Source of the DNA: Lachnospiraceae bacterium
GTDB taxonomy: Bacteria > Bacillota > Clostridia > Lachnospirales > Lachnospiraceae
Assembly (NCBI GenBank): GCA_022510525.1
Contig: JAFLTH010000010.1
Coordinates: 1-52,393 of the forward strand
Direction of reading: 5' to 3'
DNA length: 52,393 nucleotides
In this document: positions 5,785 through 52,393 of the stretch, in pieces
Position numbering within the stretch: the stretch's first letter is position 1
How the letters are laid out: each line of letters begins with the position of its first letter
Made by a program: the position numbers and the translations under genes
The notes under the pieces: model-generated
Told to the model about the DNA's origin: nothing
The model's database searches: none
Seen by the model: only the letters and a program-made list of their open reading frames with translations

Positions 5785-5906
5785 TGCAAAGAATTGCAAA
5801 AAATTTTTTAAATGTGCAACTTTTTGAAAAAAAGTATCTCTATATAAATAGAAAGAAGAATTAAGAGGGTACTTTACAAAATCTAAAGATAGGAGACAAA
5901 TTGAAA

Positions 5907-10484: not shown

Positions 10485-10567
10485 TGAAGAGTATCATAAA
10501 ATGAGTTATATCGCGGTTTATTTTTAAGATGATAAATATTCTTTATAAAGGGAAGGAGACTCTATTT

Positions 10568-13500
10568 ATGAAAATAGTAAAAAGAAATATGGCGTTGTTG
10601 CTTGTACTCAGTCTGATATGCAGCAGTTACGAGGGTAGCAGTGTATTAGCAGCAGATAACATTTCTGATATAGTTGGAAGTGTAGAGGAGGCTGAGTTTG
10701 TAGATGGTGAGTTAGCCAATCCGGAAAGTGAGGATGCTGTCAATCAGGGAAATGAGGATACTGCTAATCGGGAAAACGAGGATACTGCAGACTCAGAAAG
10801 CGAGAATGATAGCGATTCAGAAAAAGAAGACAATTCTAATTTAGGAAGTCAGGAAGATAAAAAAGTTACGGATAATGATTCATCTGAAGGTAATGAGAAT
10901 GAAGCCGGTATGGAGAATGATTTTGGTTCAGATTCAGATGAAAAAACTGATGCGTCAGAAGTTGACGCAGATGTATCTGAGGATGTTCAGGAATCGGAAG
11001 AAATAGCAGCAGAAAAGACTGATTCTATGGATGTAGACAGTCTGTTAGCCATGGGTGCGGAGGACAGACTTGCTGCGATGAGTTCTGCTGATGATATTGA
11101 TGGCGGATTTTATGAAGACGTGGCATGGGTTATTGATGTTAATGGAAAGCTGACGGTGATAGGAACGGGGGAGTTTATTAGCGCGCCTAGTTATTGGAGC
11201 AGGAGTAAAGCATCGATTATATCTGCGGAAATTTATTTGACAGGCACGAAGTATGCTTCTTATATGTTTCACGACTGTATATATATGGAAAGTGTTGATT
11301 TGAGCAACTTTGACACATCTCAAGTTACAAATATGCGATGTATGTTTTATGGTTGTGAAAGTCTGACAAGTCTCGATGTTAGCAATTTTGATACCAGTCA
11401 AGTAACAGATATGAGTCTCATGTTTTATTACTGCTTAAATTTAAAAAGTCTGGATACAAGTAGCTTTAATACTGCTAAAGTTGAAACTATGGAAGACATG
11501 TTTGGATGGTGTCAAGTTCTGGAAAGCGTAGATACAAGCGGCTTTAATACCAGTCAGGTAACAAATATGAGAGGCATGTTTGGCAATTGTCCAAAGCTGA
11601 CATATGTAGATGCAAGCGGGTTTGATACCAGCCTGGTAACAAATATGAATTACATGTTCGCACATTGTAGAAGTCTGAAGGATTTGGATGTAAGCAGTTT
11701 TAATACCAGTCGGGTTACGGATATGAGTAGTATGTTTTCAAATTGCAGCAGCTTGACAGGTTTGGATTTAAGTGGTTTTGATACCAGAAAAGTAACCAAT
11801 ATGGATGAAATGTTTTTTAATTGCAAATGTACAAGTCTGGATTTAAGCGGCTTTGACACTAGCAAGATAACAAGTATGTGGAATATGTTTTATGGTTGCA
11901 GCAGACTGACAAGTTTAGATTTAAGCAGTTTTGATACCAGTCAGGTAACAAATATGGAATCTATGTTTTGGGATTGTGATGGACTTGAAAGCTTGGATGT
12001 GAGTAATTTTGATACCGGCAAGGTGACAAATATGCATTATATGTTTGCGCATTGCAGCAGTTTGCAAAGCTTGGATTTGAGCAGTTTTGATACCAGTCAG
12101 GTAAAAGATATGGAAGGCATGTTTACTGAGTGCAAAAGCCTGACAAGCATAGATTTAAGTAGTTTTGATACCGGTCAAGTTGTAGATATGAAATTTATGT
12201 TTTTAAAGTGCAGCGGTCTTGAAAGCATAGATTTAAGTGCATTAGATACCAGTCAGGTAACAAGTATGTATAGAATGTTTGTTGATTGCAGAAACCTGAA
12301 AAGTGTAAATTTAAGTGGCTTAAATACTGCTCAGGTAACAGATATGCAAGCTATGTTTTTAGGGTGTACTAACTTAAAAAGTATTGATATGAGTAATTGT
12401 GATGTCGGTAGTGTAACAACTTTTAATAAAATATTTGACGACTGTGACAGCCTGACAACAATAAAAACACCATGTAATCTTAAAATATCTGTTCCATTAC
12501 CTGTGAATAAGCGTGAAGTATGGATTACATCTGACAAAAAGCAAATTACAGAGCTGCCGCAGAATTCAAGTGACAGTATTGAAATAACCAAAAAACACGG
12601 TGGATTCTATGAGGAAATATTATGGTTAATTGATGACGATGGTAAATTGACAGTAGAGGGAACGGGAGAAATCTCCGCATCTAGCTCAGAAACTAACAGA
12701 GCAAGAGCGCCGTGGTATGATGATAGGGAATATATTATATCTGCAGAAATTAATGTAACAGGAATGAAAAATGCATATGCTATGTTCTACGGATGTGGAA
12801 ATATGGTGAGTGTAGATTTAAGCAATTTTGACATGGCTGATGTAACAAATGCCACATATATGTTTGAAAGTTGTAGCAGCCTGACAACAGTAAAAACACC
12901 ATTAAATCTTGGACTTTCTGTAGAATTGCCTATACAAATCAATACAGTATGGTATGATCCTGATGGAGAAAATGTAACAGAGTTACCAAAGAGTTTAAGT
13001 TACAGCATAGAATTAACTAAAAATAAAATTGATGTTGGAGAAGGAACTTATGGTAATATCGAATGGCTTATTGATAAAGACTTGAAGCTGACGGTAAAAG
13101 GAACAGGGGAAATTTCAGATACTAAGGGTTATTATAGAGCACCGTGGTATTCTTATAGAAATTATATCGAATCTGCTAAAATTGAAGTGACCGGTATGAC
13201 AGATGCATCTTATATGTTTTATGCGTGCAGCAGTCTGACGAGTGTGGATTTGAGTGACTTTGATGCCAGCCAAATTACTGATATGAGTGGCATGTTTTAT
13301 GGCTGCAAAAGTTTAACAAGTCTTGATTTGAGCAGCTTGGATACCACTCAATTAGCAAATATGAGTGATATGTTTAATTGGTGCGTGAGTCTGAAAAGTG
13401 TAAATTTGGGAGATTTTAATACCAGCCGGGTTACTGATATGAGTGGTATGTTTTCTAGGTGTGATATTTCATTGATCAGTGATTTTCTAAGCAGTGTTGA

Positions 13501-16291
13501 TACAGGAAATGTAACAAATATGAGTGGAATATTTTCGTATTGTCAAAGTATTACAAGCATGGACTTTCTAAGCAGTATTGATACAGGAAATGTTACTGAT
13601 ATGAGTGACATGTTTAACTCGACAGGTCTTCTCAGTATGAATTTCAGCGCAATTAATACAAAAAATGTAACAAATATGAGTGGTATGTTTTCATACACGC
13701 GTGTGAACAGCGTAGATTTCAGCGGAGCAGATACAAGCAATGTTACAAATATGAGTTATATGTTAAGTCGCACTGGGTTTAATAGTATAAACTTAAGCGG
13801 ACTCGATACAAGTAATGTAACAGATATGAGCCATATGTTTGATGATTGCTATTCTGTAAAAAGCATAGATTTAAGCGGACTTGATACAAGTAATGTAACA
13901 GATATGAGCTATATGTTTTATAAATGCAGCAGGTTGACAAGCGTGGATTTCGGTGGAGCCAATATCCAAAATGTAACAGATATGAGTAATATGTTTTATG
14001 ATTGCAGCAATCTGACAAATGTAGATTTTGGCAGTTCTAGTGCAAATGTAAGTAATATAGATTTTATGTTTCGTAATTGCAGAAGTCTGATTAGTGTAGA
14101 TTTGAGTCGTTTTGATACCGGTAATTTATTAAGTGATAATGCTCGAAATATATTTTATAACGCTGACAGTCTGGTAAGAATTAATACGCCACTTAATTTA
14201 TCAATATCAACTATTAGCCTTCCCACAATAAAAGGTGGACACTGGGTTAGATCAGATAACGGAGAAGCAGTCAAGTCTTTGCCAACTAATTTAAGCTACA
14301 GCGTATTATTAGTTAGAGAAAGTGAAAATGACGAGGAAAAGCCGCCGGTTCTGACAAATCCTTATATTGCAGTCATCAAAACAAAGACAAGATATGTAGT
14401 CGGAGATAAGCTAAACATCGACGACATGACAGTAATCTATTACGACAGCAAGGGTGTAGCTTCTGAAGTCACCGACTACAGCACAAACGCAGCCGAAATA
14501 GACATGTCTTCCGCAGGAATAAAAGAGCTGGTAGTAACATACAAAGAATTGACCATATTAGTCAATATATATGTAACATCCGGAAACAAGGAAGGCATAA
14601 AGATAGAACTTGAAGACACCGGCAAAACTTACATCTACACCGGAACCGCAGTCACTCCAAAGGTTAAGGTAACCAACAATGGCGAGCCGCTTACCGAAGG
14701 CATTGACTATACGGTTAAATATTCCAATAATATTAAAGCCTCTGCCGCTGCCAAGATTACCGTAACCGGAAAGGGCAATTTGACCCAAAGCTATATCAAG
14801 CTATTTACTATTGAGAAAAAACAGCTTAATAATACAGATATTAATAATGATGATATGACTTTGGACGATGAAACGTCTCCAAAAGTAGAGGGAGATTATG
14901 TAACGGTAGTGGAAGGTTCCAAGATTTCTCCGGTGCTGTTGTATGGAGGTACTAAGCTGACCGCAAAGGACTTCAAAGTACCTGACGAATACAAGAGCTA
15001 CAAGTGGAAGCTGGAAGATAAAAATGATGAAAGTAAAAAGACAATAACCGTCACAGGTCAGGGAAATTTCCAAGGCACCCGCACCCTTACTGTTAAAATC
15101 ATATCCAAGGCTGAACAGAAGAATTATAAACTTAACGTAAGCCTCGGTAAAGAAGCAAAGAATCTTACATATGACGCTCAGCCTAAGGATATTAAAGCAC
15201 TTGGCCTGCTTACCATATCGACCAATAATACACCGGCTGCAGAATTGATAGAGGCAAAAGAGGGCGAAAACGGTGATTACATCATATCCTACCCGAACGA
15301 CATAACAAGCGCAGGAACCAAGAAGTTCACTGTCACCGGCATAAGCGACAGATGTATCGGTACTGTTACAAAATCTTTTACCATTAAGCCGAAGAAGACA
15401 GAATTTAGCGTGGAATATGATAAGGATAATAAGGGGTATGATTTTGTAAGTACCGGTACGACGATTCCTGATGATGAATTGATAGTCAGGGATCCGCAAT
15501 TTATAGATGGAGCGCCTTTAATAAAAGGCAAGGACTACAAGGTATCTTACAGTGGCAACAAGAAAGTGGGAACAGGCAAAATTATAATAACAGGACTCGG
15601 AAGTTACAAAGGCAGTAAATGTACCAAAACTTTTACGATCAATAAGGCTGTACTGAATAATAATCCCAGTAGTACTACCGCTAAAACCAAGGGTCTTGAA
15701 ATCGCAGTTGCCGACAAGGTTTTCAACAAAGCGGGAGTCTACAAGTCTGCACCTTATGTGAGCATAGACGGAGTATTGCTGAAAGCATCCAATTACACCG
15801 TAACTTACTATCTGGATAACCCTGTAGTCAATGCCGGTCCCAGAGTGATGGACAGTAAGAACAAGGTTACCGGTGGAGAGACAACTGTTTGGGTAAAGAT
15901 TGTAGGCAAGGGCAATTATGCTGCCGATGATGAAACATGTTATGCAACTGCTTCATACAGGGTGCGCAGCAAAGCCTCAACAGACAGTTATGACTTATCT
16001 AAGGCAAAGATTAGCTTTCAGGATAAGGATGGCAATCCCATAAAGAAAGCGGAATTTAACGGCAAACCGATAACTAATGAAGATATTAAAGTAGTAGTTA
16101 CTTATAAATCAGGAAGTGAAACCGTTACGCTTGATGCGACTTGGGACTATACGGTGACATTCGTAAACAATGTGAACAAAGGCAAGGCAACCGTCGTGAT
16201 TACAGGAAGACCAGGTCAGAATCGGTATGTTGGAAGTAAGACGGCATCCTTTAGCATTGTGGCGAATAATCTGAAAAATTTATTATTATAG
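10568..16291 (+). CDS. BspA-like (DUF285) secreted surface protein 2
   Basis: The largest paralog, 1907 aa. The signal peptide (residues 1 to about 29, cleavage near VLAA) differs in sequence from those of the other two. A long acidic, Ser-rich linker follows (to about 165). There are three DUF285 blocks of about 16, 2 and 13 repeats, each opened by a W-ID--GKL-V-GTG module; two of these carry APWY. Many units keep the pattern MFxxC..LTSLDLSxFDTSQVTxM; several in the last block lack the Cys and have shortened loops. The tail (about 1258-1900) holds a bacterial Ig-like domain (YVVGDKLNIDDMTVIYYD) and Ig-like repeats. ATG 10568 is set by AAGGAG 9 nt upstream. No sorting signal is visible. It is probably a cell-associated or secreted adhesin. 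Confidence 0.92.
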   Translation: MKIVKRNMALLLVLSLICSSYEGSSVLAADNISDIVGSVEEAEFVDGELANPESEDAVNQGNEDTANRENEDTADSESENDSDSEKEDNSNLGSQEDKKVTDNDSSEGNENEAGMENDFGSDSDEKTDASEVDADVSEDVQESEEIAAEKTDSMDVDSLLAMGAEDRLAAMSSADDIDGGFYEDVAWVIDVNGKLTVIGTGEFISAPSYWSRSKASIISAEIYLTGTKYASYMFHDCIYMESVDLSNFDTSQVTNMRCMFYGCESLTSLDVSNFDTSQVTDMSLMFYYCLNLKSLDTSSFNTAKVETMEDMFGWCQVLESVDTSGFNTSQVTNMRGMFGNCPKLTYVDASGFDTSLVTNMNYMFAHCRSLKDLDVSSFNTSRVTDMSSMFSNCSSLTGLDLSGFDTRKVTNMDEMFFNCKCTSLDLSGFDTSKITSMWNMFYGCSRLTSLDLSSFDTSQVTNMESMFWDCDGLESLDVSNFDTGKVTNMHYMFAHCSSLQSLDLSSFDTSQVKDMEGMFTECKSLTSIDLSSFDTGQVVDMKFMFLKCSGLESIDLSALDTSQVTSMYRMFVDCRNLKSVNLSGLNTAQVTDMQAMFLGCTNLKSIDMSNCDVGSVTTFNKIFDDCDSLTTIKTPCNLKISVPLPVNKREVWITSDKKQITELPQNSSDSIEITKKHGGFYEEILWLIDDDGKLTVEGTGEISASSSETNRARAPWYDDREYIISAEINVTGMKNAYAMFYGCGNMVSVDLSNFDMADVTNATYMFESCSSLTTVKTPLNLGLSVELPIQINTVWYDPDGENVTELPKSLSYSIELTKNKIDVGEGTYGNIEWLIDKDLKLTVKGTGEISDTKGYYRAPWYSYRNYIESAKIEVTGMTDASYMFYACSSLTSVDLSDFDASQITDMSGMFYGCKSLTSLDLSSLDTTQLANMSDMFNWCVSLKSVNLGDFNTSRVTDMSGMFSRCDISLISDFLSSVDTGNVTNMSGIFSYCQSITSMDFLSSIDTGNVTDMSDMFNSTGLLSMNFSAINTKNVTNMSGMFSYTRVNSVDFSGADTSNVTNMSYMLSRTGFNSINLSGLDTSNVTDMSHMFDDCYSVKSIDLSGLDTSNVTDMSYMFYKCSRLTSVDFGGANIQNVTDMSNMFYDCSNLTNVDFGSSSANVSNIDFMFRNCRSLISVDLSRFDTGNLLSDNARNIFYNADSLVRINTPLNLSISTISLPTIKGGHWVRSDNGEAVKSLPTNLSYSVLLVRESENDEEKPPVLTNPYIAVIKTKTRYVVGDKLNIDDMTVIYYDSKGVASEVTDYSTNAAEIDMSSAGIKELVVTYKELTILVNIYVTSGNKEGIKIELEDTGKTYIYTGTAVTPKVKVTNNGEPLTEGIDYTVKYSNNIKASAAAKITVTGKGNLTQSYIKLFTIEKKQLNNTDINNDDMTLDDETSPKVEGDYVTVVEGSKISPVLLYGGTKLTAKDFKVPDEYKSYKWKLEDKNDESKKTITVTGQGNFQGTRTLTVKIISKAEQKNYKLNVSLGKEAKNLTYDAQPKDIKALGLLTISTNNTPAAELIEAKEGENGDYIISYPNDITSAGTKKFTVTGISDRCIGTVTKSFTIKPKKTEFSVEYDKDNKGYDFVSTGTTIPDDELIVRDPQFIDGAPLIKGKDYKVSYSGNKKVGTGKIIITGLGSYKGSKCTKTFTINKAVLNNNPSSTTAKTKGLEIAVADKVFNKAGVYKSAPYVSIDGVLLKASNYTVTYYLDNPVVNAGPRVMDSKNKVTGGETTVWVKIVGKGNYAADDETCYATASYRVRSKASTDSYDLSKAKISFQDKDGNPIKKAEFNGKPITNEDIKVVVTYKSGSETVTLDATWDYTVTFVNNVNKGKATVVITGRPGQNRYVGSKTASFSIVANNLKNLLL

Positions 16292-16435: not shown

Positions 16436-16473
16436 TTGACAAGATAAAACAAAAAGAATAGAAATGTTCTATT
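16436..16473 (+). promoter_or_regulatory. Promoter candidate with palindrome over the -10 box
   Basis: A perfect TTGACA (16436-16441) is 17 bp from TAGAAA (16459-16464). The inverted repeat AATAGAA-ATG-TTCTATT (16457-16473) covers the -10 box and start region. It differs from the TATAAC-N8-GTTATA repeat of the other two surface genes, so a different regulator is likely. TATTAT at 16482 is an alternative -10. Confidence 0.5.
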
Positions 16474-16500
16474 TCATATGGTATTATGATATAGGTAATG

Positions 16501-16514
16501 TTGCCATACGGCAA
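16501..16514 (+). promoter_or_regulatory. Short palindrome in the leader of surface gene 3
   Basis: TTGCC-ATAC-GGCAA is a perfect 5-bp inverted repeat just before the ribosome binding site AGGAGA (16520-16525). It could be an operator half-pair or a small RNA hairpin. Confidence 0.35.
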
Positions 16515-16535
16515 TCGAGAGGAGATGCATTTTCA

Positions 16536-19500
16536 ATGAATTTATTTAAAAAGCGGATTATTGCAGGCTTATTAGCCGTAACAATGGTAGTTTCATCACT
16601 GCAAATTTCTACATATGAGGTTTATGCAGAAGAATTGTCAGAGGAAACATCAGATGTGATGGCTGAGACAGAGGAGGAAGCGCCTTCATCATTAGATATC
16701 AGCGAGGAAGAAAGTCCTTATGAGAACGTAGAAGCAGCAGACCTGAGTGATATTTACCAGTTTGGTGGGGCACCATCAAGGGAGGCATTGGAAGCTGCTG
16801 AACCATCGTTATCTATTGAATCAGATAATCTGGCTGATGAGGTTGAAGGATTAACGGTAGAAGAGTACATTTACCGGCAGATGATGGCGAAAAATGAAAA
16901 TATAGATATTAGCGCTTTTAATGTGACTTATAGCGGAGCTAAATTTATTAGTGATATTGTACATGGTGTGATTAATGATAATCCTTCTCTTTACTTTGTC
17001 AAGCCTATACAATATTGGAATAATGGGAAAATTTATACTGTAATCAATGTGGCTTATGATGATAGTTATATCGTTGAAAATTTTGAAAAAGAAACAAAAA
17101 CTGCATTATCTTTTGTTGACAATCAAATGAGCGACTTGCAAAAAGCGATTATATTACATGATTATTTAGCAGTTAACTGTGCGTATGATTATGATAATTA
17201 TTTAAATGGTCATATTCCTGATGCGTCCTATAATGCTTATGGAGTATTGGTAGAAGGAAAGGCTGTGTGTCAAGGTTATGCGCTTGCTTATAAATATCTG
17301 CTAAACCAGGTGGGTATTGAGTGTTACATGGTAACCAGTGATGTGATGAATCATGCATGGAATCTTATAAAGCTTGATGGTGAATATTATCAGGTTGATG
17401 TCACTTGGGATGACCCTGTGTGGGATTTGACCGGTAGAGCACGCCATCTATATATGTTTCTTAGTGACGATACATTTGCTTTAACCGGAGATGAGGATCC
17501 GAATAAAAGACACCGTAACTGGGAAGTAACATCCGGCAGTAAAGTAGTAGATTATAAGGCTACTGATGATAAATATGATTCGGCTTTTTGGGCGAATTCC
17601 AATGCTCCTTTTGTATTGACCGGAGATGACTGGAATACTTGTTATTATGTAAATTATGATACTAAGGGAGTAATTAATCAAACAGAGCTTTCCGACATAT
17701 CCGATAAAGGAGAAACTATTTATGAATTTGAAAGTTGGGGTTGGAAAAACACATATTCAGGATTGTTCCAGTATAATGGCCGTTTGTATTTTAACGATAA
17801 AACGTCCATTCGTAGTATGGCGCTTGATGATATAAGTGATAACCGAGTTGAGTTTACTCCGGAAACTTCTTCAGGTAATTACATTTTTGGCAGTGCTCTC
17901 TGTCGGGGAAAAGTACTTTATTCTTTACATACAACTCCAAACATAACTGAAACAGAGACCGTATATGAGGCAAATATTAATGGTATAGAAACTGAAGAAC
18001 CAGAGGTAACACTTGTAGATAAAATCGAACTGGATAAGTATACATTGACATTGGAAGAAGGTGAAACAGCCGAACTGACAGCCACAGTGTCTCCGGCTGA
18101 ATCAACATATACTAATGTTATATGGAAGAGCAGTGATTCTTCAATCGCGGAGGTAAAATCCGGAGTAGTAACGGCAGTTTCGGCAGGTAGTTGTACTATT
18201 ACTGCATCAGTGGGAGATGTAAAAGCTATTTGCAGTGTGACTGTGAAGAGTGGGTCAACAGATATTCCTGTAGAAGGTATTGAATTGCATCCTACTGAAT
18301 TAACCTTGAAAGTAGGAGAAGCATCAGAACTTGAAGCTGCAGTTACTCCAGAAAACGCAACAAATGCAGCTATAACATGGGAGAGTAGCAATCCTTTAAT
18401 TGCAGAGGTGGAATCTGCAACAAATAAATCTGTTGTCGTAAGAGCACTTTCAAAAGGAAACTGTACTATAACAGTGTCTTCATGTGGAGTGGAAGCCGTT
18501 TGTAATGTGATTGTTATTGCTAATGAAAAAAATGATAATATTGCCGAAGGCAGTTATGAAGGTATTAGGTGGGTAATAGATAAGAACTATAAACTGACGG
18601 TTGACGGAAACGGAGATTTTGCAGAACCGACGGGTGACAATGATTACTATTATATGGAAGATAGGGCGCCATGGTATGGCTATGAGATAAAGTCCGCTGA
18701 AGTTAATGTGACCGGTATGACTGATGCTTCCTTTATGTTTGCTTATTGTCATGATCTTATTGATGTAGATTTTAGAAATTTTGATACATCTGAAGTTACA
18801 AATATGAGTGGTATGTTTGAAGGATGCAGCAGTCTGACAAGCTTAGACTTGAGCGATTTAGATACCGGCCACGTGACAAATATAAGTGGTATCTTTTCTG
18901 GTTGCGAAAGTATTACAAATATGGATTTTCTAAGAAGCATTGATACAAGAAATGTAACAGATATGAGTCGTGTATTTTCAGGCTGCGACAAGCTGACAAG
19001 TGTAGATTTTAGTGGAATTGATACCCAAAATGTAACAAATATGAGTGGAATGTTTTATGGCTGCAGTAGTCTGATAAGTGCGGATTTGAGCGAAGCAGAT
19101 GCCCGAAATATAACAAATATGAGCAAGATGTTTTATAATTGCGTCGACATGGTAAATTTGAATATTAGGGGAATTTATACACCATATCTAACGGATATGA
19201 GTGAAATGTTTTATTCTTGTAGAAAGCTGACAAGTCTGGATATTAGTGGAATTGATACCCGAAATGTATCAAATATGAGTGGTATGTTTGAAAGATGCGG
19301 CAGCCTGACAAGTATGGATTTTAGTAATCTTTATTTTACCACTCCAGTCAATATGAACGGAATGTTTTATAGCTGCAGCAGTCTGATAAATGTGGAGTTT
19401 GGTGATTCTAACATATGTGTGAGTGATATAAGTAGAATGTTTGATTACTGTGAAAATCTGACTAGTATAGATTTGAGTAATATAGATTTGGGCAGTATGA

Positions 19501-21674
19501 ACGACGGTAATGTAAATAATAGTACAACATTATTTAACGGTTGTGGCAGCCTGATAAGAATTAATTCTCCACATAGTGTAAGATTACGTCTGTATCTTCC
19601 TAAAAGAACCGGTGAATACTGGGTTAGGTCAGATAACGGAGAAACGGTTGAGTATTTGCCAACTGATTTAAGCTACAGCGTATTATTAGTTATAAAAAAA
19701 GATCCTAACGACCAAGGCACGGAAGACCAACCGATTCCGACAGATGCTTATATTACAGTAAGCAAGTTAAAGACTGGCTATATTATTAGCGAAACCCTGA
19801 ATACCGACGATCTAACGGTAACCTATTACGACAGCCTGGGAGCCGCTTCCGAAGTCGTCAGATACACCACAAACGCAGACGAAATTGATATGTCCACTGC
19901 AGGAACAAAAGAGTTGACTGTAACTTACAAAGAATTGACTGCATCGGTCAATATATATGTGACATCTGGCAATAGGGAAGGCATAAAGGTAGAGTTTGCA
20001 GACCCGCATAAGGCTTATATTTATACCGGAAAAGCCATAACTCCTAAGATTAAGGTAACAAACAACGGAGAACCGCTTACCGAAGGAACTGACTATACCG
20101 TTAAGTATTCCAATAATGTCAAAGCTTCCGAATCCGCGAAAGTTGTCGTAACCGGAAAGGGCAACATGTTCAAAAGCTATACTAAGGTATTCATCATTCA
20201 GAGGAAACAGCTTGATAATACAGATCTTATTAATAGGGATGTCGCGCCTGACGCTGTTGCGGCTCCTATGGTAGAAGGAGATTATGTAACGGTCGTTGAA
20301 GGCGCCAAGATATCTCCGGTGCTTATGTATAACGGCATGAAGCTGACAGCCAAGGACTTCAAAGTGACTGATGAATACAAGAACTACAAGTGGAAGCTGG
20401 AAGATAAAGATGATAACAGCAAGAAAACCATAACCGTCACAGGGCAGGGCAATTATCAAGGCACTCGAACCCTTGCTGTTAAAGTTATATCAAAGGCTGA
20501 GCAGAATAATGTCAAGCTTATAGTAAGCATCGGAAAAGATGCAAAGAAAATTACTTATGACGGCGAACCTAAGGATATTGCCGCGCTTGGCCTGCTGACA
20601 GTATCGACTAAGAATACGCCGGCATCAGAGCTTAAAGAAGCTAAGGACGGAAAGGACGGCGACTATGTCATATACTATCCGGATGATATAACAGGCGCAG
20701 GAACTAAGAAGTTCACAATTACCGGCATAAGCGAAAGGTGTATGGGAACTGTCACCAAATCCTTTGCCATTAAGCCGAAGAAAGCAGATTTCATCGTAAC
20801 ATATGATGAGGATAACCGAGGATATGATTTTGTAAGCACCGGAACGAAGGTTGGCGATTTAGTAGTCAAGGACGGAGAAACCGTATTAGATGAAGGCATA
20901 GACTATAAGGTAACCTATAGCGGCAACAAGAAGGCTGGTAACACTGCGAAGTTCACCATAACAGGCATAGGAAGCTACAAGGGCAGTAAATGCACCAAGA
21001 CCTTTACCATCAATAAAGGGGTGTTGAATAATAATGCAAAGAGTATCGCAGAGAGAACGAAAAATCTAGAGATTGCCGTTGCAGACAAGGTATTCAATAA
21101 AGCGGGCATTTACAAATCAGCACCGTATGTGAGCATAGACGGCGTACAGTTGAAGGCCTCCAATTACACCGTAACCTACTATCTGGATAACCCTGCAGTC
21201 AATTCAAATCCTAGGGTGATGGATGGCAAGAACAAAGTTACTAGGGGAGAGACAACCGTATGGGTGAAAATTATAGGTAAGGGTAATTATGCTACCACAG
21301 ATGATACCTGTTATGTAACTGCTTCATACAGGGTACGCAGCCTGGCTTCATCCGACAGCTATGACTTATCCAAGGCAAGTGTGACTTTCCGGGATAAGGA
21401 TGGAAACCCCATCAAGAAGATAGAATATACCGGCGAACCGATTACTGGGGATGATATCAAAGTGGTGGTTACATACAAGATAGGAAAAGAAACATATACG
21501 CTGGGCGAAACCAATGACTACACACTAACATTTATAAACAATGTGAACAAAGGAAAGGCTACTGTACTGATTACAGGAAGACCCGGCCAGAGCGGATATG
21601 TTGGAAGCAAGACGGCTTCGTTCAGCATTACGGCAGGTAATTTGAGTAATGTATTGAGTAATACAGCAGGATAG
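16536..21674 (+). CDS. BspA-like surface protein 3 with transglutaminase-like and Big_2 domains
   Basis: A 1712-aa exported protein. The signal peptide (cleavage after residue 31) is nearly the same as in surface protein 1. Residues about 160-300 form a transglutaminase-like domain with Cys245 (AVCQGYA), His273 (NHAWN) and Asp288 (VDVTWDDP) in the expected order and spacing, so it may be an active protease or cross-linker. Two Big_2 Ig-like domains (about 492-575 and 578-662) follow, then a W-ID module with APWY, about 11 DUF285 repeats (722-1008) and the Ig-like tail shared with the paralogs. No sorting motif is present. AGGAGA-N10-ATG sets the start. Upstream in-frame codons exist but would precede the signal peptide. 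Confidence 0.92.
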   Translation: MNLFKKRIIAGLLAVTMVVSSLQISTYEVYAEELSEETSDVMAETEEEAPSSLDISEEESPYENVEAADLSDIYQFGGAPSREALEAAEPSLSIESDNLADEVEGLTVEEYIYRQMMAKNENIDISAFNVTYSGAKFISDIVHGVINDNPSLYFVKPIQYWNNGKIYTVINVAYDDSYIVENFEKETKTALSFVDNQMSDLQKAIILHDYLAVNCAYDYDNYLNGHIPDASYNAYGVLVEGKAVCQGYALAYKYLLNQVGIECYMVTSDVMNHAWNLIKLDGEYYQVDVTWDDPVWDLTGRARHLYMFLSDDTFALTGDEDPNKRHRNWEVTSGSKVVDYKATDDKYDSAFWANSNAPFVLTGDDWNTCYYVNYDTKGVINQTELSDISDKGETIYEFESWGWKNTYSGLFQYNGRLYFNDKTSIRSMALDDISDNRVEFTPETSSGNYIFGSALCRGKVLYSLHTTPNITETETVYEANINGIETEEPEVTLVDKIELDKYTLTLEEGETAELTATVSPAESTYTNVIWKSSDSSIAEVKSGVVTAVSAGSCTITASVGDVKAICSVTVKSGSTDIPVEGIELHPTELTLKVGEASELEAAVTPENATNAAITWESSNPLIAEVESATNKSVVVRALSKGNCTITVSSCGVEAVCNVIVIANEKNDNIAEGSYEGIRWVIDKNYKLTVDGNGDFAEPTGDNDYYYMEDRAPWYGYEIKSAEVNVTGMTDASFMFAYCHDLIDVDFRNFDTSEVTNMSGMFEGCSSLTSLDLSDLDTGHVTNISGIFSGCESITNMDFLRSIDTRNVTDMSRVFSGCDKLTSVDFSGIDTQNVTNMSGMFYGCSSLISADLSEADARNITNMSKMFYNCVDMVNLNIRGIYTPYLTDMSEMFYSCRKLTSLDISGIDTRNVSNMSGMFERCGSLTSMDFSNLYFTTPVNMNGMFYSCSSLINVEFGDSNICVSDISRMFDYCENLTSIDLSNIDLGSMNDGNVNNSTTLFNGCGSLIRINSPHSVRLRLYLPKRTGEYWVRSDNGETVEYLPTDLSYSVLLVIKKDPNDQGTEDQPIPTDAYITVSKLKTGYIISETLNTDDLTVTYYDSLGAASEVVRYTTNADEIDMSTAGTKELTVTYKELTASVNIYVTSGNREGIKVEFADPHKAYIYTGKAITPKIKVTNNGEPLTEGTDYTVKYSNNVKASESAKVVVTGKGNMFKSYTKVFIIQRKQLDNTDLINRDVAPDAVAAPMVEGDYVTVVEGAKISPVLMYNGMKLTAKDFKVTDEYKNYKWKLEDKDDNSKKTITVTGQGNYQGTRTLAVKVISKAEQNNVKLIVSIGKDAKKITYDGEPKDIAALGLLTVSTKNTPASELKEAKDGKDGDYVIYYPDDITGAGTKKFTITGISERCMGTVTKSFAIKPKKADFIVTYDEDNRGYDFVSTGTKVGDLVVKDGETVLDEGIDYKVTYSGNKKAGNTAKFTITGIGSYKGSKCTKTFTINKGVLNNNAKSIAERTKNLEIAVADKVFNKAGIYKSAPYVSIDGVQLKASNYTVTYYLDNPAVNSNPRVMDGKNKVTRGETTVWVKIIGKGNYATTDDTCYVTASYRVRSLASSDSYDLSKASVTFRDKDGNPIKKIEYTGEPITGDDIKVVVTYKIGKETYTLGETNDYTLTFINNVNKGKATVLITGRPGQSGYVGSKTASFSITAGNLSNVLSNTAG

Positions 21675-42972: not shown

Positions 42973-44163
42973 ATGTTTAGAAAAAAAATTGCGTTATTGT
43001 CGGCAGTTGTGCTGACTGTAGGCATGTTGTCCGCGTGTGGAAACAATACGTCAGAAAATAATGCAGACAATAGTGTGGAAAATACCGTGGACAGTAAGGC
43101 GGATAATGATGCGGGAAATACCACTGATAATAGTGTAGATAATACATCAGGCAATGATGCAGACTATGTATATATCAGTGAATTAAAGGCTGATGATTAT
43201 GTCACATTGGGTGAATATAAAGGTATTGAGCTTAATGAGACACCACCATCAGTTTCCGAGGATGACGTTAGTCAATATATCAATACTTATGTTCTGTCGT
43301 CACAAGCAACTACTGTACCTGTAGAAGACAGAACTGATGTTCGAGAAGGGGATACGGTCAATATTGATTATGCCGGTTATAAAGACGGAGTTGCATTTTC
43401 CGGAGGTACGGCACAGGGCTATGACCTGACTATCGGTTCAGGGACTTTTATTCCGGGATTTGAGGATGGACTTATCGGAAGTAATCTAGGAGATACCGTC
43501 TCACTGGATCTGACTTTTCCGGAGAATTACGGTAATGCTGATCTGGCAGGTGCTGCGGTAGTTTTCGAGGTTAAAGTTAATAGTATCTCGGTTACGGAAG
43601 TGCCGGAGCTTACAGACGAACTGGTACAGGAACTGAATATCGGAGACTGCTCTACTGTAGAAGAATTAAGAGATTATATGTATGATTATTTATATTCAAA
43701 TGCAGAAAGCACATATAGCACGACACTTAGAAATGATATAACTAAAGCGGTTAAGGCAAATTGCACATTTAAAGAAGAACTTCCGGAGAAACTGATAGAC
43801 CGCTATTATGATTTATTGATAGAAGATATGTTAGCGGCTGCATCATATTATGGTATGGATTTAAGTACTTACATTCAGAATGCTTACAACATGGATGAAG
43901 AGACTTATACCGAAATCGCAAGAGACAATGCACGGAATATGGCTGAGCAGTATATAATGTTTCAGGCGATTGCTGATATGGAAGAACTCAATATGACAGA
44001 TGAAGAAATAGATACGACCAGTGAAGAATGGGCGTCCAATTATGGATATGAATCGGTTGATGCCTTATTAAATCAGATAGATAAAGATACACTTAGTGAG
44101 TATTTTATGGCGGAAAAAGTAGTAGAATTCCTGCTTGAAAATGCAAATATTAATACAAATTAA
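42973..44163 (+). CDS. Lipoprotein FKBP-type peptidyl-prolyl isomerase (trigger-factor-like)
   Basis: A 396-aa lipoprotein (lipobox LSAC, lipid Cys22). An Asn/Asp/Thr linker of about 45 residues follows with imperfect short repeats. The FKBP domain (about residues 115-205) shows GDTVNIDYAGYKDGVAFSGG and GSGTFIPGFEDGLIG, the usual catalytic region. The rest is a trigger-factor-like C-terminal helical chaperone part (LTDELVQELNIGDCSTVEEL onwards). It therefore looks like an extracytoplasmic trigger factor that folds exported proteins, perhaps including the large surface proteins here, but that is inference. AsnRS follows after 65 bp. Confidence 0.9.
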   Translation: MFRKKIALLSAVVLTVGMLSACGNNTSENNADNSVENTVDSKADNDAGNTTDNSVDNTSGNDADYVYISELKADDYVTLGEYKGIELNETPPSVSEDDVSQYINTYVLSSQATTVPVEDRTDVREGDTVNIDYAGYKDGVAFSGGTAQGYDLTIGSGTFIPGFEDGLIGSNLGDTVSLDLTFPENYGNADLAGAAVVFEVKVNSISVTEVPELTDELVQELNIGDCSTVEELRDYMYDYLYSNAESTYSTTLRNDITKAVKANCTFKEELPEKLIDRYYDLLIEDMLAAASYYGMDLSTYIQNAYNMDEETYTEIARDNARNMAEQYIMFQAIADMEELNMTDEEIDTTSEEWASNYGYESVDALLNQIDKDTLSEYFMAEKVVEFLLENANINTN

Positions 44164-46935: not shown

Positions 46936-47245
46936 GAATAGAACCCAATAACATCTGGATATGCGAAAGAATAGAACGCGTTAAGCTTATGCCTTGGAGA
47001 ATGGCTTTGATGGATTCCTAATTTTAAGGAATTGCTGAGTAAATTAGGATAAAATGCATAATGCATTTTCAATGTGTAGATCTCTTTAAATACTTTAATA
47101 TTTTTGGAACACAAAAAAGACAATGAACCATAGGGTTATTGTCTTTTTTGTTCTTAATTAAGCTGCCTCTTACAATCAAAATTATATTAACGCAACTTTT
47201 ATGTAATTGATTAATTAAATACTTCAAGAAGAATATTTCTTAGTT
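46936..47245. other. Intergenic region with palindromes, no gene seen
   Basis: About 310 bp between the NlpC/P60 gene and the TIR gene. It holds CCTAATTT paired with AAATTAGG (47017-47049), the near-perfect palindrome AAAATGCAT-A-ATGCATTTT (47051-47069) and a direct repeat GAATAGAAC (46935 and 46969). No credible reading frame with a ribosome binding site was found. Confidence 0.5.
47107..47153. terminator. Bidirectional terminator between NlpC/P60 and TIR genes
   Basis: GAACacAAAAAAGACAAT (47107-47124) pairs with ATTGTCTTTTTTGTTC (47138-47153); AACC-ATAG-GGTT forms the inner stem. The A-rich and T-rich arms let it act on both converging transcripts. Confidence 0.85.
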
Positions 47246-48433
47246 TTAAAATGAACTGCCAAAGGTTAGCATACCTATTATAAAGAGAATGAACATTATG
47301 CCAAATCTTGGGCCAAAATTCATTTTTATTTTAATCTTTGGGCATATTATGAGACCTCCTACAATGAAACACACAGCAGCCATAAAGCTTGTGCTAAATA
47401 CAGTAAGGCAACATAATATCATTATACTTGTTGCAAACCACATAATAAATTCTTTAATTGAATTAGCAAATGAACTAAGCTTACTTACTGATTGAGGTTT
47501 ATAGCTATGCTCTTGTGAAATCGATTCTTTAAATGATTCTACAAGTGAACTAAGCTTATTAATAAATTGTGGTTTATCCTTCTGAACTTCGGTATTTGAT
47601 TGTTGCATATGCTGCGTCTGCTGCGTCTGCTGATATTGTGGTTCGGGTTCAGGCATTTTTACTAATGATTCTTCGGTTTCCTCATTGCCTTGAACATCCA
47701 AAACCGTTTCTTTTGACTCAACGGTGACGAAATCTTCTTTATCGGATGTCTTGGATGCAAGCGACTTGTCAAATACTTCTTTGCTGACAGAGCTTATCGT
47801 ACGTTTTATTGCCTTAAGGTCATTTATTGACTTTTTATTTATTGAGGCATCTCGGAAAAAGTTTATAAACGCGTCTGAAATATCATATCTGGACAGCGCA
47901 TCCTGCTCCAACAGGGTCGAAATGCTTGTATAAGCGGATTTCATTGCCCTCATCAAATCGTTTGAAGTGTTGTTTGTGTTTGTAGCAATATTTGACCCTT
48001 GATTGATTATCTCGGTTTTTACGCCTCGTTCCACATCAGGTTGATCGGTCGTATCTCCAAGATGAAGATTCTCCTCAACTGACACAAATACTATCGGCTT
48101 TTTGTTATTGACAGCAGTTAAAAGCTCCAGAAAACAAGCATAGCTCTCTATGTAGCTTTGACTTACGAACGCTACTATTACATCTGCACCGCGAATGTTT
48201 CGTAACATAGGTACGATCCACTTGTCGTTCACCTTATCAAATGCCTTATCTGCATATGCACATAGACCATATTGTTGCTGGAGCGGTACAACGACATTCT
48301 TAAATACTGTCTCCCAGTTGTCACTTGAGTAGCTAATAAAAGCGTAAGGCTTTCTCTGAGAACACTCTGTTATCACCAGATTTTTTTCGAGATAATCCGA
48401 ACGTTCTCTCTTTTGTGATTCATTCAATGCCAT
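47246..48433 (-). CDS. TIR-domain protein with C-terminal membrane segments
   Basis: A 395-aa protein. Residues 29-120 form a TIR domain: YAFISYSSDNWETVF opens it, DVIVAFVSQSYIES is the central strand, and SYACFLEL matches the S-x2-C-x2-E motif with the probable catalytic glutamate at 103. TIR domains of this type hydrolyse or modify NAD+ in bacterial immunity. The middle is charged and Gln-rich, with two copies of a SxLSSxxxSxKE segment (about 284-330). Residues 329-349, 351-364 and 377-392 form three hydrophobic segments. ATG 48433 has GAGGAG about 10 nt upstream. It lies downstream of the RyR-like gene on the same strand but has its own promoter candidate. Confidence 0.85.
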   Translation of the reverse strand: MALNESQKRERSDYLEKNLVITECSQRKPYAFISYSSDNWETVFKNVVVPLQQQYGLCAYADKAFDKVNDKWIVPMLRNIRGADVIVAFVSQSYIESYACFLELLTAVNNKKPIVFVSVEENLHLGDTTDQPDVERGVKTEIINQGSNIATNTNNTSNDLMRAMKSAYTSISTLLEQDALSRYDISDAFINFFRDASINKKSINDLKAIKRTISSVSKEVFDKSLASKTSDKEDFVTVESKETVLDVQGNEETEESLVKMPEPEPQYQQTQQTQHMQQSNTEVQKDKPQFINKLSSLVESFKESISQEHSYKPQSVSKLSSFANSIKEFIMWFATSIMILCCLTVFSTSFMAAVCFIVGGLIICPKIKIKMNFGPRFGIMFILFIIGMLTFGSSF

Positions 48434-48457
48434 TGTTTTTACTCCTCTCAATTTGCT

Positions 48458-48473
48458 GGTATTATAAAATACC
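48458..48473 (-). promoter_or_regulatory. Inverted repeat in the leader of the TIR gene
   Basis: GGTATT-ATAA-AATACC, perfect 6-bp arms with a 4-nt centre, lies between the predicted transcription start and the ribosome binding site. Confidence 0.4.
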
Positions 48474-48487
48474 ATATATTAGAGCAT

Positions 48488-48516
48488 ATTTTATCATATA
48501 TTGCGTCTTATAACAA
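48488..48516 (-). promoter_or_regulatory. Promoter candidate of the TIR gene
   Basis: On the minus strand TTGTTA (48516-48511), a 17-bp spacer and TAAAAT (48493-48488) lie about 55 bp before the start codon. Confidence 0.5.
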
Positions 48517-48563
48517 GATTTTTGAAGCTTTTTATCGGAAATTGGCTGAACGGGAAACTTAAT

Positions 48564-49949
48564 TTATTCGTTATTTTGCATTTTGCTTTTTATTGCCTCA
48601 ACATTCTTTAATTTCTCTTCTGTGCTGAGTTCAGAAAACGGTATAAGACTGCTATGTATACGTCTGCTACTGTCTGTATCCGTACCATATTTCCAATTGT
48701 GTATATAATGATATCTGCACCACCTGATATGTTCAAGTTCTGCAATACTTAACAAAGGAACTCCCTTTTCAATTAATCGGTTTATTACGTGCATATAGTC
48801 CGATGAACTTACATTGGAATACCTTTTGAAACAGTCAAGCTTTTCCCATGGGGCACCCCCATGTTGGTTTACATAAAAATTGTGCTGTTTGCGGGCGGCT
48901 TCAATTGATTTTTCATTCAGAATTATGTCGATGGAAGCCATCTCCTTTGCTGTTCCGAAACATATAAGTCTGTCTTTTCCAAAAAGGTTTGTTATAATAT
49001 CACCATTAGGGGTATATATATAAATCTGCTGATTGACCGGTGCTGCTGAAAGTAATTTACTTACGGCTTCGATGTTTCTGTTCTCATCTGAACTGGCGCA
49101 TACTATGATTCTGTCAAAATCCGGCATCTTGGCAAATTCGTAATTGCCGTCGTCATGAAATATTATTTCATCTGGTGCCATTTTATTAAGCTCGGTATGT
49201 TCTCGCCTGAATTCTGTTCCATCACCATAAATGTGATATTCAAAATGTTGTCCGGGATCGATAATGTTCATCTGAAGTCCATATAGCAAAATATTTTTGC
49301 CTACATTTTCAAATCCGATTATTGCAATTTTTTCACTTTTTTCAACCGGATAATCTCTCCAATACTGCCTTGCGCAGTTTTCTGCAATGCTAAAGACTGT
49401 TATCATAGAGTTTTCGATATTTTGTCTTGATATATTTTCCAACATTATGTACACATTTTTATCTTTGAGAGATTCGTAATTTTTATTATAAAATTTTAGA
49501 TTTTGAGTATCACTTGAAAACATAAGCAGATACCTTGAAGCATTTTTTATAAACTTTTTATCTCCTCGTATTCTCATTCGCGGGTTTAAACTATCAAATA
49601 TGTATTCGGCATAACTTGAATTACCATAAACGACTGTTACGCTTGAGACTCGAAGTTTAAGCCAGTTTATTATATCATTCATCTTGTTGAATATATTCAT
49701 CAAGATGCTGAAAGTTGCTGCCAGCGCCATAAATCGTGCAATCTGAAGAAGTCCGTCAGCGGGTACTTCACTTTCGGTACTGCCGCCATACAGCTTGATA
49801 GATGCATAAATCGCGTCCAAAAGAGGAAATTTGTGAGTGTCTTTTTGTTCCCTAAAAGCAGGACAGTAACTGTAGATTCCTATAAAAAATGGAAGAATCT
49901 TATATAATACATTTAGGAATTTATTGAATATTTGAATATTTTTTTTCAT
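48564..49949 (-). CDS. Membrane protein with tandem RCK-like Rossmann regions and RyR-like C-terminus
   Basis: A 461-aa protein. Two hydrophobic segments (about 11-32 and 66-88) flank a short loop. Residues about 102-200 and 206-345 look like two Rossmann folds of RCK/TrkA-N type: the first opens VTVVYGNSSYAEYIF, the second KIAIIGFENVGKNIL, with later strands RIIVCASSD and QIYIYTPNG. Residues about 345-457 carry the RyR (ryanodine-receptor repeat) pattern: KSIEAARKQHNFY, AELEHIRWCRYHY, NWKYG and SSLIPFSELSTEEK. Bacterial TrkA-N plus RyR proteins are known but poorly understood, thought to sense nucleotides or ions. AAGGAG lies 5 nt before ATG 49949. It is followed by the TIR gene after 130 bp. 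Confidence 0.8.
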   Translation of the reverse strand: MKKNIQIFNKFLNVLYKILPFFIGIYSYCPAFREQKDTHKFPLLDAIYASIKLYGGSTESEVPADGLLQIARFMALAATFSILMNIFNKMNDIINWLKLRVSSVTVVYGNSSYAEYIFDSLNPRMRIRGDKKFIKNASRYLLMFSSDTQNLKFYNKNYESLKDKNVYIMLENISRQNIENSMITVFSIAENCARQYWRDYPVEKSEKIAIIGFENVGKNILLYGLQMNIIDPGQHFEYHIYGDGTEFRREHTELNKMAPDEIIFHDDGNYEFAKMPDFDRIIVCASSDENRNIEAVSKLLSAAPVNQQIYIYTPNGDIITNLFGKDRLICFGTAKEMASIDIILNEKSIEAARKQHNFYVNQHGGAPWEKLDCFKRYSNVSSSDYMHVINRLIEKGVPLLSIAELEHIRWCRYHYIHNWKYGTDTDSSRRIHSSLIPFSELSTEEKLKNVEAIKSKMQNNE

Positions 49950-50415
49950 AATGACTCCTTATTTATCAATATCTTTCTGACAAACTTGCAGAATATAATC
50001 GATTTGTGTTGAATTTAGCATAATTACTATAGCATATATTCACAATCATATCTATATGGGACGACATAAATATTGTGAAGGAATTTAATATATATCAAGC
50101 AGTCATTTTACTCATTTTTTTATTTACAATAATGGTGCTCTTATCTACAATTTGTGCAGTTTGTTCCCTTAAAATTGCGATTTGTTCCTAATATATTGCA
50201 ATTAATAATAAATTGTGTTATATAGAAATTTACTGAATTTTACATTCTATATCAAAATTTCAACATTTTTTTGGTTAAATTTTGTTTTTTTTCTATTGAC
50301 TAAACTGGTTAATTTATATATTATTACTCTGTATAAATATACCATAAAATCATTATTTCAACATAATTATATTATAATTGACATTTATGTATAAAAGAGA
50401 AAGGCAGGAGTGTGC
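49950..50415. other. AT-rich divergent regulatory region
   Basis: About 465 bp between the RyR-like gene and the right-hand surface gene, with no reading frame seen. It holds TTCACAAT paired with ATTGTGAA (50039-50046 and 50072-50079), a TTTGTTCC direct repeat (near 50160 and 50182, each followed by ATTGC), and a weak minus-strand promoter TTGTGA-17-TATGCT (50045-50017) for the RyR-like gene. Confidence 0.45.
50296..50324 (+). promoter_or_regulatory. SigA-type promoter for the right-edge surface gene
   Basis: TTGACT (50296-50301), a 17-bp spacer and TATTAT (50319-50324), about 90 bp before the start codon. Confidence 0.6.
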
Positions 50416-52393
50416 ATGGATCATCAAGCTATGTTTTTAATTACGATTTTCGCATTAGTTATTTATTACATAATAGCGGAGTTTGCATGGCAGCTTATGA
50501 AAAAGCAATTCAGAAGGAGACTGGTCATAGGTGTCCTTTTAGCGGCGCTGTTGTTTACCCAGATAGATTTTGTAAATCTATTTACACAAACAAACGCTGA
50601 AACAGTGTCGGCTGCTACAGAGGATGATGAAGCCGCTATAGATATGGAATCTGTATCAAACATGGAAGCCGATAACGGCATAGCAGAACTTCCTGCCGAT
50701 ACTACGCTGTCTGATGATATAACTGAGCAGACCGAGCCTGAGGAAGAAACTGCACCCGAAGGTGAACCCACCGTGGATGGAGAAAGCACTCCCGAAGGTG
50801 AACCCGCCGTGGACGGAGAAAGCACTCCCGAAAGTGAATCTGCCGTGGACGGAGAAAGCGCTTCTGAAGGTGAACCCACTGTAGATGGGGAAAGTGTGCC
50901 CAAAGGTGAATCCACCGTGGATGGGGAAAGCACTCCCAAAGATGAATCCAAGGAGGAGAAAGAAGGCACATCTAAAGATGAAACCACAGCAGATGGAGAG
51001 ACTGCTCCAGATGTGAAAACTCCTAATAACGAAATTCCCTCGAATATGGAAACGCCGGATGAAAAGAGCATATCGGATGCAGAAAAACAGGAAAATTCTG
51101 AGGATGATACTAAAGAAGTAAATGAGACGCATATAAAATATGTCATAAATGAAAAAATTTTGAAATCTGCAGGCGGGATTGCCTTGTTTTCAGTAGATGA
51201 TGTGATGGCGATATCGGAGACAGCTGATACTGATATGGATATTCATGACAGCCTCGATTGGAAAAAATGGGAAGATACCAGTAGTCTACCAACCTCAGGT
51301 AACTATTATCTGGATAAGGATGTAGTGCTTGATAAGTTTGAATGGAAATTGACTGGAACACTCAATCTCTGTTTTAATGGTAATAAATTTTCAGGTAGCA
51401 TTTTGGGTATTAAAACAGACCCTTTTGAACTGAATATTCATGACTGTCGCGGTGATAGTTCACACATAAGCTATAAAATCTTTTATTATAAAAATTATGG
51501 AACGGATGCAAAGTATGAGTATGAGGGCAGATATACATATGGGAAAGGTTTGACATCACTGTATGTTCCACCGAAGAGGACTGGCTATACCTTTGAGGGG
51601 TGGTATAAGGATTCGAATTGCAACGAAGATGATAAGGTGACGAGCATTAGCGAAACAGATGAAGGTAATATGGATCTTTATGCGAAGTGGGAAGTAGAGA
51701 CCTACACGATCACTTATTATCTAAACAATGAGAATGGATCTCATACGGACAGCTATGCATATGGAGAGGGTTTGGAACCACTGTATGAACCACCGGAGTG
51801 GAAAGGCCACAAGTTTTTAGGTTGGTATAAGGATTCGGATTTAAGTGACGGGCCAGTGACAAGCATTAGAGAAGATGAAACAGGTGATAAGAAGTTTTAT
51901 GCGAAGTGGGAAGCAGAGACCTACAAAATCACTTATTACAAAAACGATGGAACAGATGAATCGTTTGAGGGCAGCTATACATATGGAGTAGGCTTGGAAT
52001 CACTGGATTCTCCACCGGAAAGGACCGGATACACCTTTGAGGGATGGTATGAAGACTCCAAATGCAACGGAGAAGAAGTGACAAACATTAGCGATACTGA
52101 AACAGATGATAAGGAATTTTATGCGAAGTGGACACTAGAGACCTACACAATCACTTATTATATAAACGATGGAACGGAAGCATCGTATACGAGAAGTTAT
52201 ACATATTTAGATACAGTCACACTGGAGGCGCCACAAACCAACAGGGATCACTACAGCTTTAAGGGTTGGTATGAGAACGCGGATTGCAGCGGAGAAGAAG
52301 TGAAAAGCGTTGGGCCTGGTGAAGCTGGTGACAAGATATTTTATGCGAAATGGGAAGCAGAAAGCTACAAGATCACATATCATCTGAACAATG
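50416..52393 (+). CDS. InlB/Flg_new-repeat surface protein (partial, runs off window)
   Basis: The frame is open from ATG 50416 (GGAG 5 nt upstream) to the window end, at least 659 residues. Two hydrophobic segments open it: MFLITIFALVIYYIIAEF, then after KKQFRRR the segment LVIGVLLAALLFTQIDFV, the latter followed by a likely export cleavage near TNAETVSAA. Residues about 75-240 are acidic and Pro/Thr/Ser-rich, with five copies of a 12-residue repeat (PEGEPTVDGEST). A region with SGNYYLDKDVVLD and GTLNLCFNGNKF follows. From about residue 355 come Listeria-Bacteroides (Flg_new, InlB B-repeat type) units of about 74 residues (GYTFEGWYKDS ... LYAKW, then TYTITYY). It is probably a cell-surface protein; the C-terminal anchor lies outside. 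Confidence 0.88.
   Translation, partial: MDHQAMFLITIFALVIYYIIAEFAWQLMKKQFRRRLVIGVLLAALLFTQIDFVNLFTQTNAETVSAATEDDEAAIDMESVSNMEADNGIAELPADTTLSDDITEQTEPEEETAPEGEPTVDGESTPEGEPAVDGESTPESESAVDGESASEGEPTVDGESVPKGESTVDGESTPKDESKEEKEGTSKDETTADGETAPDVKTPNNEIPSNMETPDEKSISDAEKQENSEDDTKEVNETHIKYVINEKILKSAGGIALFSVDDVMAISETADTDMDIHDSLDWKKWEDTSSLPTSGNYYLDKDVVLDKFEWKLTGTLNLCFNGNKFSGSILGIKTDPFELNIHDCRGDSSHISYKIFYYKNYGTDAKYEYEGRYTYGKGLTSLYVPPKRTGYTFEGWYKDSNCNEDDKVTSISETDEGNMDLYAKWEVETYTITYYLNNENGSHTDSYAYGEGLEPLYEPPEWKGHKFLGWYKDSDLSDGPVTSIREDETGDKKFYAKWEAETYKITYYKNDGTDESFEGSYTYGVGLESLDSPPERTGYTFEGWYEDSKCNGEEVTNISDTETDDKEFYAKWTLETYTITYYINDGTEASYTRSYTYLDTVTLEAPQTNRDHYSFKGWYENADCSGEEVKSVGPGEAGDKIFYAKWEAESYKITYHLNN
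50755..50934 (+). repeat. 36-bp tandem repeat (five units)
   Basis: Units start at 50755, 50791, 50827, 50863 and 50899, with a degraded sixth at 50935. Each encodes a 12-residue P-x-G-E-x-x-V-D-G-E-S-x variant. The in-frame period allows copy-number change without frameshift. Confidence 0.9.
51470..52393 (+). repeat. Flg_new/InlB-type repeats, period about 222 bp
   Basis: The G-x-x-F-x-GWY-x-(D/N) core recurs at about 51587, 51809, 52030 and 52251, each followed by FYAKW or LYAKW and TYxITYY. A fifth unit begins at the window end. Confidence 0.88.

Follow-up and report, generated by a model that had tools for sequence, protein, structure and literature searches.

Many bacterial TIR proteins are effectors that deplete nicotinamide adenine dinucleotide (NAD), Cat1 too is a TIR protein, and the macro-type ThsA of the Thoeris system has a transmembrane (TM) part. 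Passages of a Thoeris study describe ThsA as using SIR2-SLOG or macro domains (PMC11204291), and passages of a May 2026 preprint describe phage RyR domains that bind or cleave cyclic ADP-ribose (cADPR), a TIR product, as well as RyDEP, a phage RyR-domain anti-Thoeris protein (PMC13232231). Here we describe two adjoining genes, both on the minus strand at 47246..49949 of a 52,393-nucleotide stretch of DNA from a gut Lachnospiraceae bacterium (JAFLTH010000010.1; this whole stretch is called the window below), which encode a TIR protein and a membrane protein ending in an RyR domain (RyR-TM). The pairing recurs with TIR partners of different builds, the predicted folds of both proteins are recognizable, and residues of the RyR ligand site are kept. 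The reading we favor, which we hold to be moderately probable, is a Thoeris-like circuit, most likely serving defence or stress responses, in which the TIR protein makes a cADPR-type signal that acts on an RyR-gated membrane channel.

A TIR gene beside the RyR-TM gene in many genomes

We scanned 84,980 species genomes with an alignment of RyR proteins; 96 of 102 stretches were confirmed and 80 loci were kept, 25 of them in a subfamily close to the window protein (L005-L028 and L030) and 55 in a distant one. TIR partners were sought with an iterated TIR profile against all open reading frames (ORFs) of these loci. A TIR gene was found in 50/80 (19/25 close, 31/55 distant), and by gene order 50 TIR genes from 49 loci stood among the 410 genes no more than three positions from RyR-TM, compared with none among the 397 genes farther away (Fisher's test; the genes are not all independent, and L063 is counted twice). 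In L070, the 50th locus, the TIR ORFs lie 114 and 2691 base pairs (bp) off and are absent from the gene list. In 14 of the 25 close loci, RyR-TM is followed by the TIR gene on its own strand after a gap of 9 to 141 bp. The initial annotation of the window had taken the two genes for a functional pair tied to NAD-derived nucleotide signaling, and the adjacency of TIR and RyR-TM genes in many other genomes supports the pairing.

The TIR partners belong to different families, differ in build and include proteins with MORN, TPR, WD40 (with ThsB_TIR), AAA/NB-ARC-TPR, PDZ, Sel1 or DUF6273 parts. In two loci where no TIR was found, L038 and L040, a protein of the TIR-like DUF4062 family adjoins RyR-TM. 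Partner exchange is seen in L059, where an RyR protein of the distant subfamily (230 bits) accompanies a TIR (467 bits) from the family of the window protein.

The source genome itself contains two RyR-TM genes, one in the window (C2) and one on C13, together with a free-standing gene for an RyR protein of 111 residues. TIR_2 is matched above cut-off twice in its 3.5 Mb, both times with an RyR-TM gene no more than 3 kb away; a third, sub-threshold match, on C1, has none that close. RyR-TM was matched at E 1e-20 in 39/397 genomes of the same taxonomic family, the source genome included, and at E 1e-25 in 8/391 genomes across the class. At 12 of the 41 RyR-TM loci of the family sample TIR_2 lies within 5 kb, where about 0.2 would be expected under even placement. 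PF02026 was found near the end of all eight longer proteins searched, in two cases below cut-off.

Other genes and frames were seen around these loci. One TIR cluster beside RyR-TM comprises L079:3774-6113, L035:5448-7799, L044:9448-11925 and L067:527-2953; its L079 member, which was scanned, combines TIR, AAA/NB-ARC and TPR in a layout close to that of plant TIR-NLRs. A protein of ~660-770 residues with a C-terminal RyR domain (cluster c2) occurs in 13 loci, and larger clusters (L072:2701-9323, L061, L063, L064, L078, L080, L081 and L084) hold c2, TIR and RyR-TM genes, four of them with an additional PDDEXK_4 gene. The 665-residue c2 protein gave no significant Pfam match; by eye it looks HD-like. 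A protein of ~510-570 residues is encoded within three genes of RyR-TM in L006, L007, L008, L009, L010, L013, L014 and L059, and its scanned L013 member is a DHH/DHHA1 protein, possibly a phosphodiesterase that degrades the signal. In the family sample, RyR-TM-like frames of 529-553 residues in G004, G010, G012, G021, G057, G111, G130 and G192 have TIR_2 within 5 kb in 0/8 cases.

Predicted folds and conserved sites of the two proteins

The RyR-TM gene (48564..49949, minus strand) encodes 461 residues, predicted to form a membrane receptor or channel. In the AlphaFold2 model (pLDDT, the predicted local distance difference test, 87.3), a long helix at residues 2-34 that includes the first hydrophobic segment (TM1; 49848..49946) is followed by a short helix at 42-55 (49785..49826), after which comes GGSTE, and a second long helix at 66-101 that includes the second hydrophobic segment (TM2; 49647..49754). 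This long-short-long arrangement fits the order TM1-pore helix-TM2. Residues 105-345 (48915..49637) are predicted to form two RCK-like Rossmann domains, arranged as a tandem gating ring, and comparison of the model with VIA-align matched the gating rings of CASTOR and DMI1 as well as TrkA, GsuK and RyR. At the C-terminus, residues 398-456 (48582..48758) match PF02026 above cut-off and have a predicted RyR fold. Profile, model and structural comparison thus agree with the membrane helices, two Rossmann regions and RyR-like end first read in this protein, and RCK-like and RyR folds are both predicted.

The residues by which RyDEP contacts its ligand (PMC13232231) were found, at an offset of one, in PDB chain 35tm_A; judged from these residues, 35tm is taken to be RyDEP. 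A gapless alignment of 35tm_A with the window RyR domain places the contacts at H407, W410 and H432, and the catalytic Asp at N449. The equivalents of RyDEP His75, Trp78 and His100 are therefore all kept, which is three of the four contacts to 2'/3'cADPR, at identical spacing. All three positions are identical in 78/78 full-length members of the RyR-TM family, the window protein and its paralogue included. These kept contacts suggest that the RyR domain may bind an ADP-ribose (ADPR)-type signal made by the TIR protein.

The second RyR-TM gene of the source genome, which belongs to the distant subfamily, stands at the end of a set on C13 (L085:3399-8063) that begins with a 909-residue TIR protein and continues with the 111-residue RyR protein, encoded on the opposite strand. 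This small protein matches PF02026 at E 2.9e-37 and has Asn in place of the second ligand His; it might act as a sponge or off-switch encoded by the host.

The TIR gene (47246..48433, minus strand) encodes 395 residues if translation begins at M15; residue numbers here follow the longest ORF (47246-48475). Its TIR domain (residues 42-136; 48068..48352) matches PF13676 significantly and has a predicted TIR fold. The catalytic Glu of the S-x2-C-x2-E motif, noted earlier as Glu103 counted from M15, is intact as Glu117 (48125-48127), and Glu occupies this position in 53/53 aligned TIR domains found near RyR genes, that of the window included. By analogy with the TIR biochemistry of other systems, the protein would be expected to turn NAD+ into a cADPR-type signal. 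A helical extension (residues 137-236; 47768..48067) is conserved across the aligned TIR relatives. The window copy ends in hydrophobic helices (residues 333-377 and 389-406; 47258..47479), a predicted membrane anchor that stands where many relatives have a TM-MORN part, and it has no MORN itself.

Among the 120 TIR relatives listed, 87 bear MORN as judged by its repeat pattern, and all 87 have a strong hydrophobic segment between TIR and MORN. The count of K and R residues across this segment is higher on the TIR side in 84/87 and equal in 3/87, and the segment together with this bias places MORN outside the cell. Detection by the window's TIR family may thus take place at or outside the membrane. 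We tentatively consider a more specific form of the cADPR-RyR pathway, which we regard as possible though doubtful, in which a membrane receptor that senses outside the cell and carries TIR inside would make a cADPR signal that gates an RCK-type ion channel through the RyR domain; such a layout would resemble Toll, in reverse order.

Direction of signaling and possible roles

In the circuit we favor, the membrane-anchored TIR protein, most of whose listed relatives are fused to a variable sensor-like region, would serve as sensor and synthase. Once activated it would convert NAD+ to a cyclic ADP-ribose-type signal, and the RyR domain of the neighboring protein would bind this signal. The bound domain would then move the RCK-like gating ring and open a transmembrane pathway, and the resulting depolarization or ion leak could stop the cell in a manner like abortive infection. 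We assign the receiving role to the RyR protein because it is constant while its TIR partners bring varied sensor-like parts of their own, because partners have been exchanged in L059, because the RyR site keeps the contacts of RyDEP, a binder of a TIR product, and because the catalytic Glu is kept in every aligned TIR domain near an RyR gene.

The initial annotation had the order the other way around, with the RyR-RCK protein responding at the membrane to a change in a nucleotide or ion and activating the TIR protein, whose NADase activity would be the effector. RCK and RyR domains are indeed ligand sensors, and NAD depletion by bacterial TIRs is established knowledge. However, this order leaves unexplained why RyR proteins of a single kind accompany TIRs that have different sensor-like domains of their own, and why their RyR site resembles that of proteins binding TIR products. 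We rejected it on these grounds as quite unlikely, and the direction originally proposed is probably reversed.

Several observations count against the circuit. The first concern the putative pore. The filter motif of K+ channels is TVGYG; the window protein has YGGSTE, without GYG, at the place of the pore helix and filter. Motifs at this place in the distant subfamily are GYGD in L035 and NYGD or DYGD in several other relatives. We compared the TM region by hhalign with 17 K+ channel pores of PF07885 (17 of 30 fetched loci gave the filter motif), with 30 shuffles per set as controls. The probability was 1.6 for all 77 rows (permuted maximum 1.3), 0.5 for the close subfamily (permuted maximum 1.5) and 0.6 for the distant one (permuted maximum 1.4). 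A profile search of solved structures returned only RyR chains among the matches listed (60/61) and no K+ channel; a further such search returned RyR chains and one unrelated match at E 1.1, again with no K+ channel, and the typed pore peptide matched inorganic pyrophosphatase alone (E 0.21). The fold comparison of the model barely covers the TM part. With hhalign probabilities barely above or below the permuted maxima, a K+ channel pore was left as unproven by sequence, and the channel reading rests on the predicted architecture.

A second point against the circuit is the position of the catalytic Asp117 of RyDEP, which is Asn449 in the window protein and Asp in 70 of the 78 family members (Asn in 6, a gap in 2). 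Asp in most of the family would suit a different role, in which the RyR protein is a guard or off-switch, a membrane sponge or slow glycosidase for the TIR signal that would protect the cell from its TIR, and NAD+ loss caused by the TIR protein kills; phage RyDEP proteins act in this way on TIR signals according to passages of PMC13232231. For a sponge, however, the membrane helices and gating ring would be superfluous, the predicted RCK-like architecture suggests gating, and Asn replaces the catalytic Asp in the window copy, so that we consider such a guard unlikely. To take the Asn as proof of a receptor that does not hydrolyze its ligand would be an overcall, because the phage homologues tested besides RyDEP showed no hydrolysis despite high conservation, as passages of the same preprint report (PMC13232231).

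A third is the number of loci without a partner. No TIR was found in 30 of the 80 loci, although two of these have DUF4062 and some contigs are short. When one neighbor from each of 19 of these 30 loci was searched against Pfam, 2 were DUF4062 proteins, 13 belonged to ordinary families (enzymes, transporters, helicases or transglutaminases), and 4 had no match, one of which (L077) is an RyR-domain protein of cluster c2. In the family sample, TIR_2 was absent within 5 kb of 29/41 RyR-TM loci, 14/39 genomes had no TIR_2 match at all at E 0.01, and a TIR lay within 5 kb at 2/20 loci with frames of 523-571 residues compared with 10/21 of the others. G175:C35, which has no TIR_2, shares coordinates with the DUF4062 locus L040, and the two are presumably one record. 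Given these counts and the split by frame length, the link between TIR and RyR is strong and not universal.

Lastly, PADLOC gave no match for the ten genes upstream of the window pair, and none of 30 pattern matches in viral contigs was a relative; on the latter result we rejected a phage-borne system. The lack of PADLOC matches, and the outward MORN placed by hydrophobic segment and K/R bias in 87/87 MORN-bearing relatives, would suit a housekeeping or envelope-stress pair in which the outward MORN or membrane part would monitor the cell surface and the RyR channel would regulate ion balance. This we consider very unlikely. RyR-TM is patchy, being present in 39/397 genomes of the family and unmatched in both genomes of the same genus that were examined, and site content varies among the three genomes compared, in that an AsnRS-NlpC/P60 block is kept in both relatives and the content that follows differs. 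Some partners, such as TIR-NB-ARC-TPR, have no evident outside part, and in one operon type the PDDEXK_4 gene (L072, from a cluster of four loci) matches the PADLOC defence candidate PDC-S26. Patchy presence, variable site content, TIR-NB-ARC and DUF4062 partners and the PDC-S26 match together speak for a possible role of the TIR-RyR pair in defence, and with modest confidence we place defence, or suicide that limits damage, ahead of housekeeping.

Surroundings of the pair and comparison with known systems

Downstream of the TIR gene, a stem-loop at 47112..47150 with T runs on both strands (RNA fold z -5.8 on the plus and -6.1 on the minus strand) was missed by a simple scan. It likely ends transcription of both the TIR gene and the NlpC/P60 gene that faces it, in line with the bidirectional terminator first annotated at this boundary. 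On the other side, ~460 bp without a listed ORF separate the RyR gene from a divergent gene that faces it (50410-52393, plus strand), runs past the end of the stretch and has an acidic repeat tract at ~50730-50990; by eye, we take its repeats to be of the InlB type. Elsewhere in the window, 5901-9938, 10529-16291 and 16464-21674 encode surface-type proteins of very large size, all three with DUF285/BspA leucine-rich repeats; Big_2 and transglutaminase domains are present as well in the third. In the product of the gene at 42973-44163 (plus strand), a lipoprotein-type signal, judged by eye from LSACG, precedes Trigger-factor C-terminal and FKBP domains; the protein is likely a prolyl isomerase of the cell surface.

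A TIR gene beside a nucleotide receptor is already known from Thoeris; the TM-RCK-RCK-RyR receptor is new as far as the searched literature shows. That literature contained no description of the TIR-RyR gene pair, though Yirmiya 2025 (10.64898/2025.12.03.692087) lies outside it and may list the pair, and the passages of PMC13232231 that were searched mention no bacterial TIR-RyR operon. Were the favored circuit correct, a ligand-gated ion channel would be among the readouts of bacterial TIR signaling, and one domain would serve phages that disarm TIR signals, animal ryanodine receptors and a bacterial channel. In the more specific cADPR-RyR pathway, the output of the TIR system would be ion flux rather than NAD loss. 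In animal physiology, action of cADPR on the RyR domain itself is disputed; a bacterial protein of 461 residues encoded beside the likely source of the signal would offer a simple, testable model for the link between cADPR and animal RyR.

The pair resembles Thoeris (ThsB and ThsA) in that a TIR gene adjoins a gene for a kind of domain that could bind ADPR-type signals, and differs in its receptor, which is TM-RCK-RCK-RyR in the window and SIR2-SLOG or macro in ThsA. No Thoeris ThsA or ThsB model matched either protein at E 1 in PADLOC 2.0.0 of 2023, a library that predates later Thoeris types. It has the RyR fold in common with RyDEP, along with three identically spaced ligand contacts; RyDEP, however, terminates the signal as a free phage enzyme or sponge and has Asp117 where the window copy has Asn, whereas the window RyR is part of a host membrane protein beside a TIR. 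DUF4062 proteins, described as TIR-like NADases in the Swarozyc system in passages of PMC13174449, stand beside the RyR protein in the TIR-less L038 and L040 and are absent from the window pair. Like GsuK, MthK, BK (hSlo1), CASTOR, DMI1 and TrkA/KtrA, the RyR-TM protein is predicted to have two RCK-like Rossmann domains after long-short-long helices; unlike these RCK-gated channels it has an additional C-terminal RyR domain, no GYG filter and almost no sequence support for a pore. Animal ryanodine receptors likewise carry an RyR domain with matching residues (the Repeat12 domain) in an ion channel, which in the bacterial case is a predicted one, roughly one tenth as large and built around an RCK-type ring.
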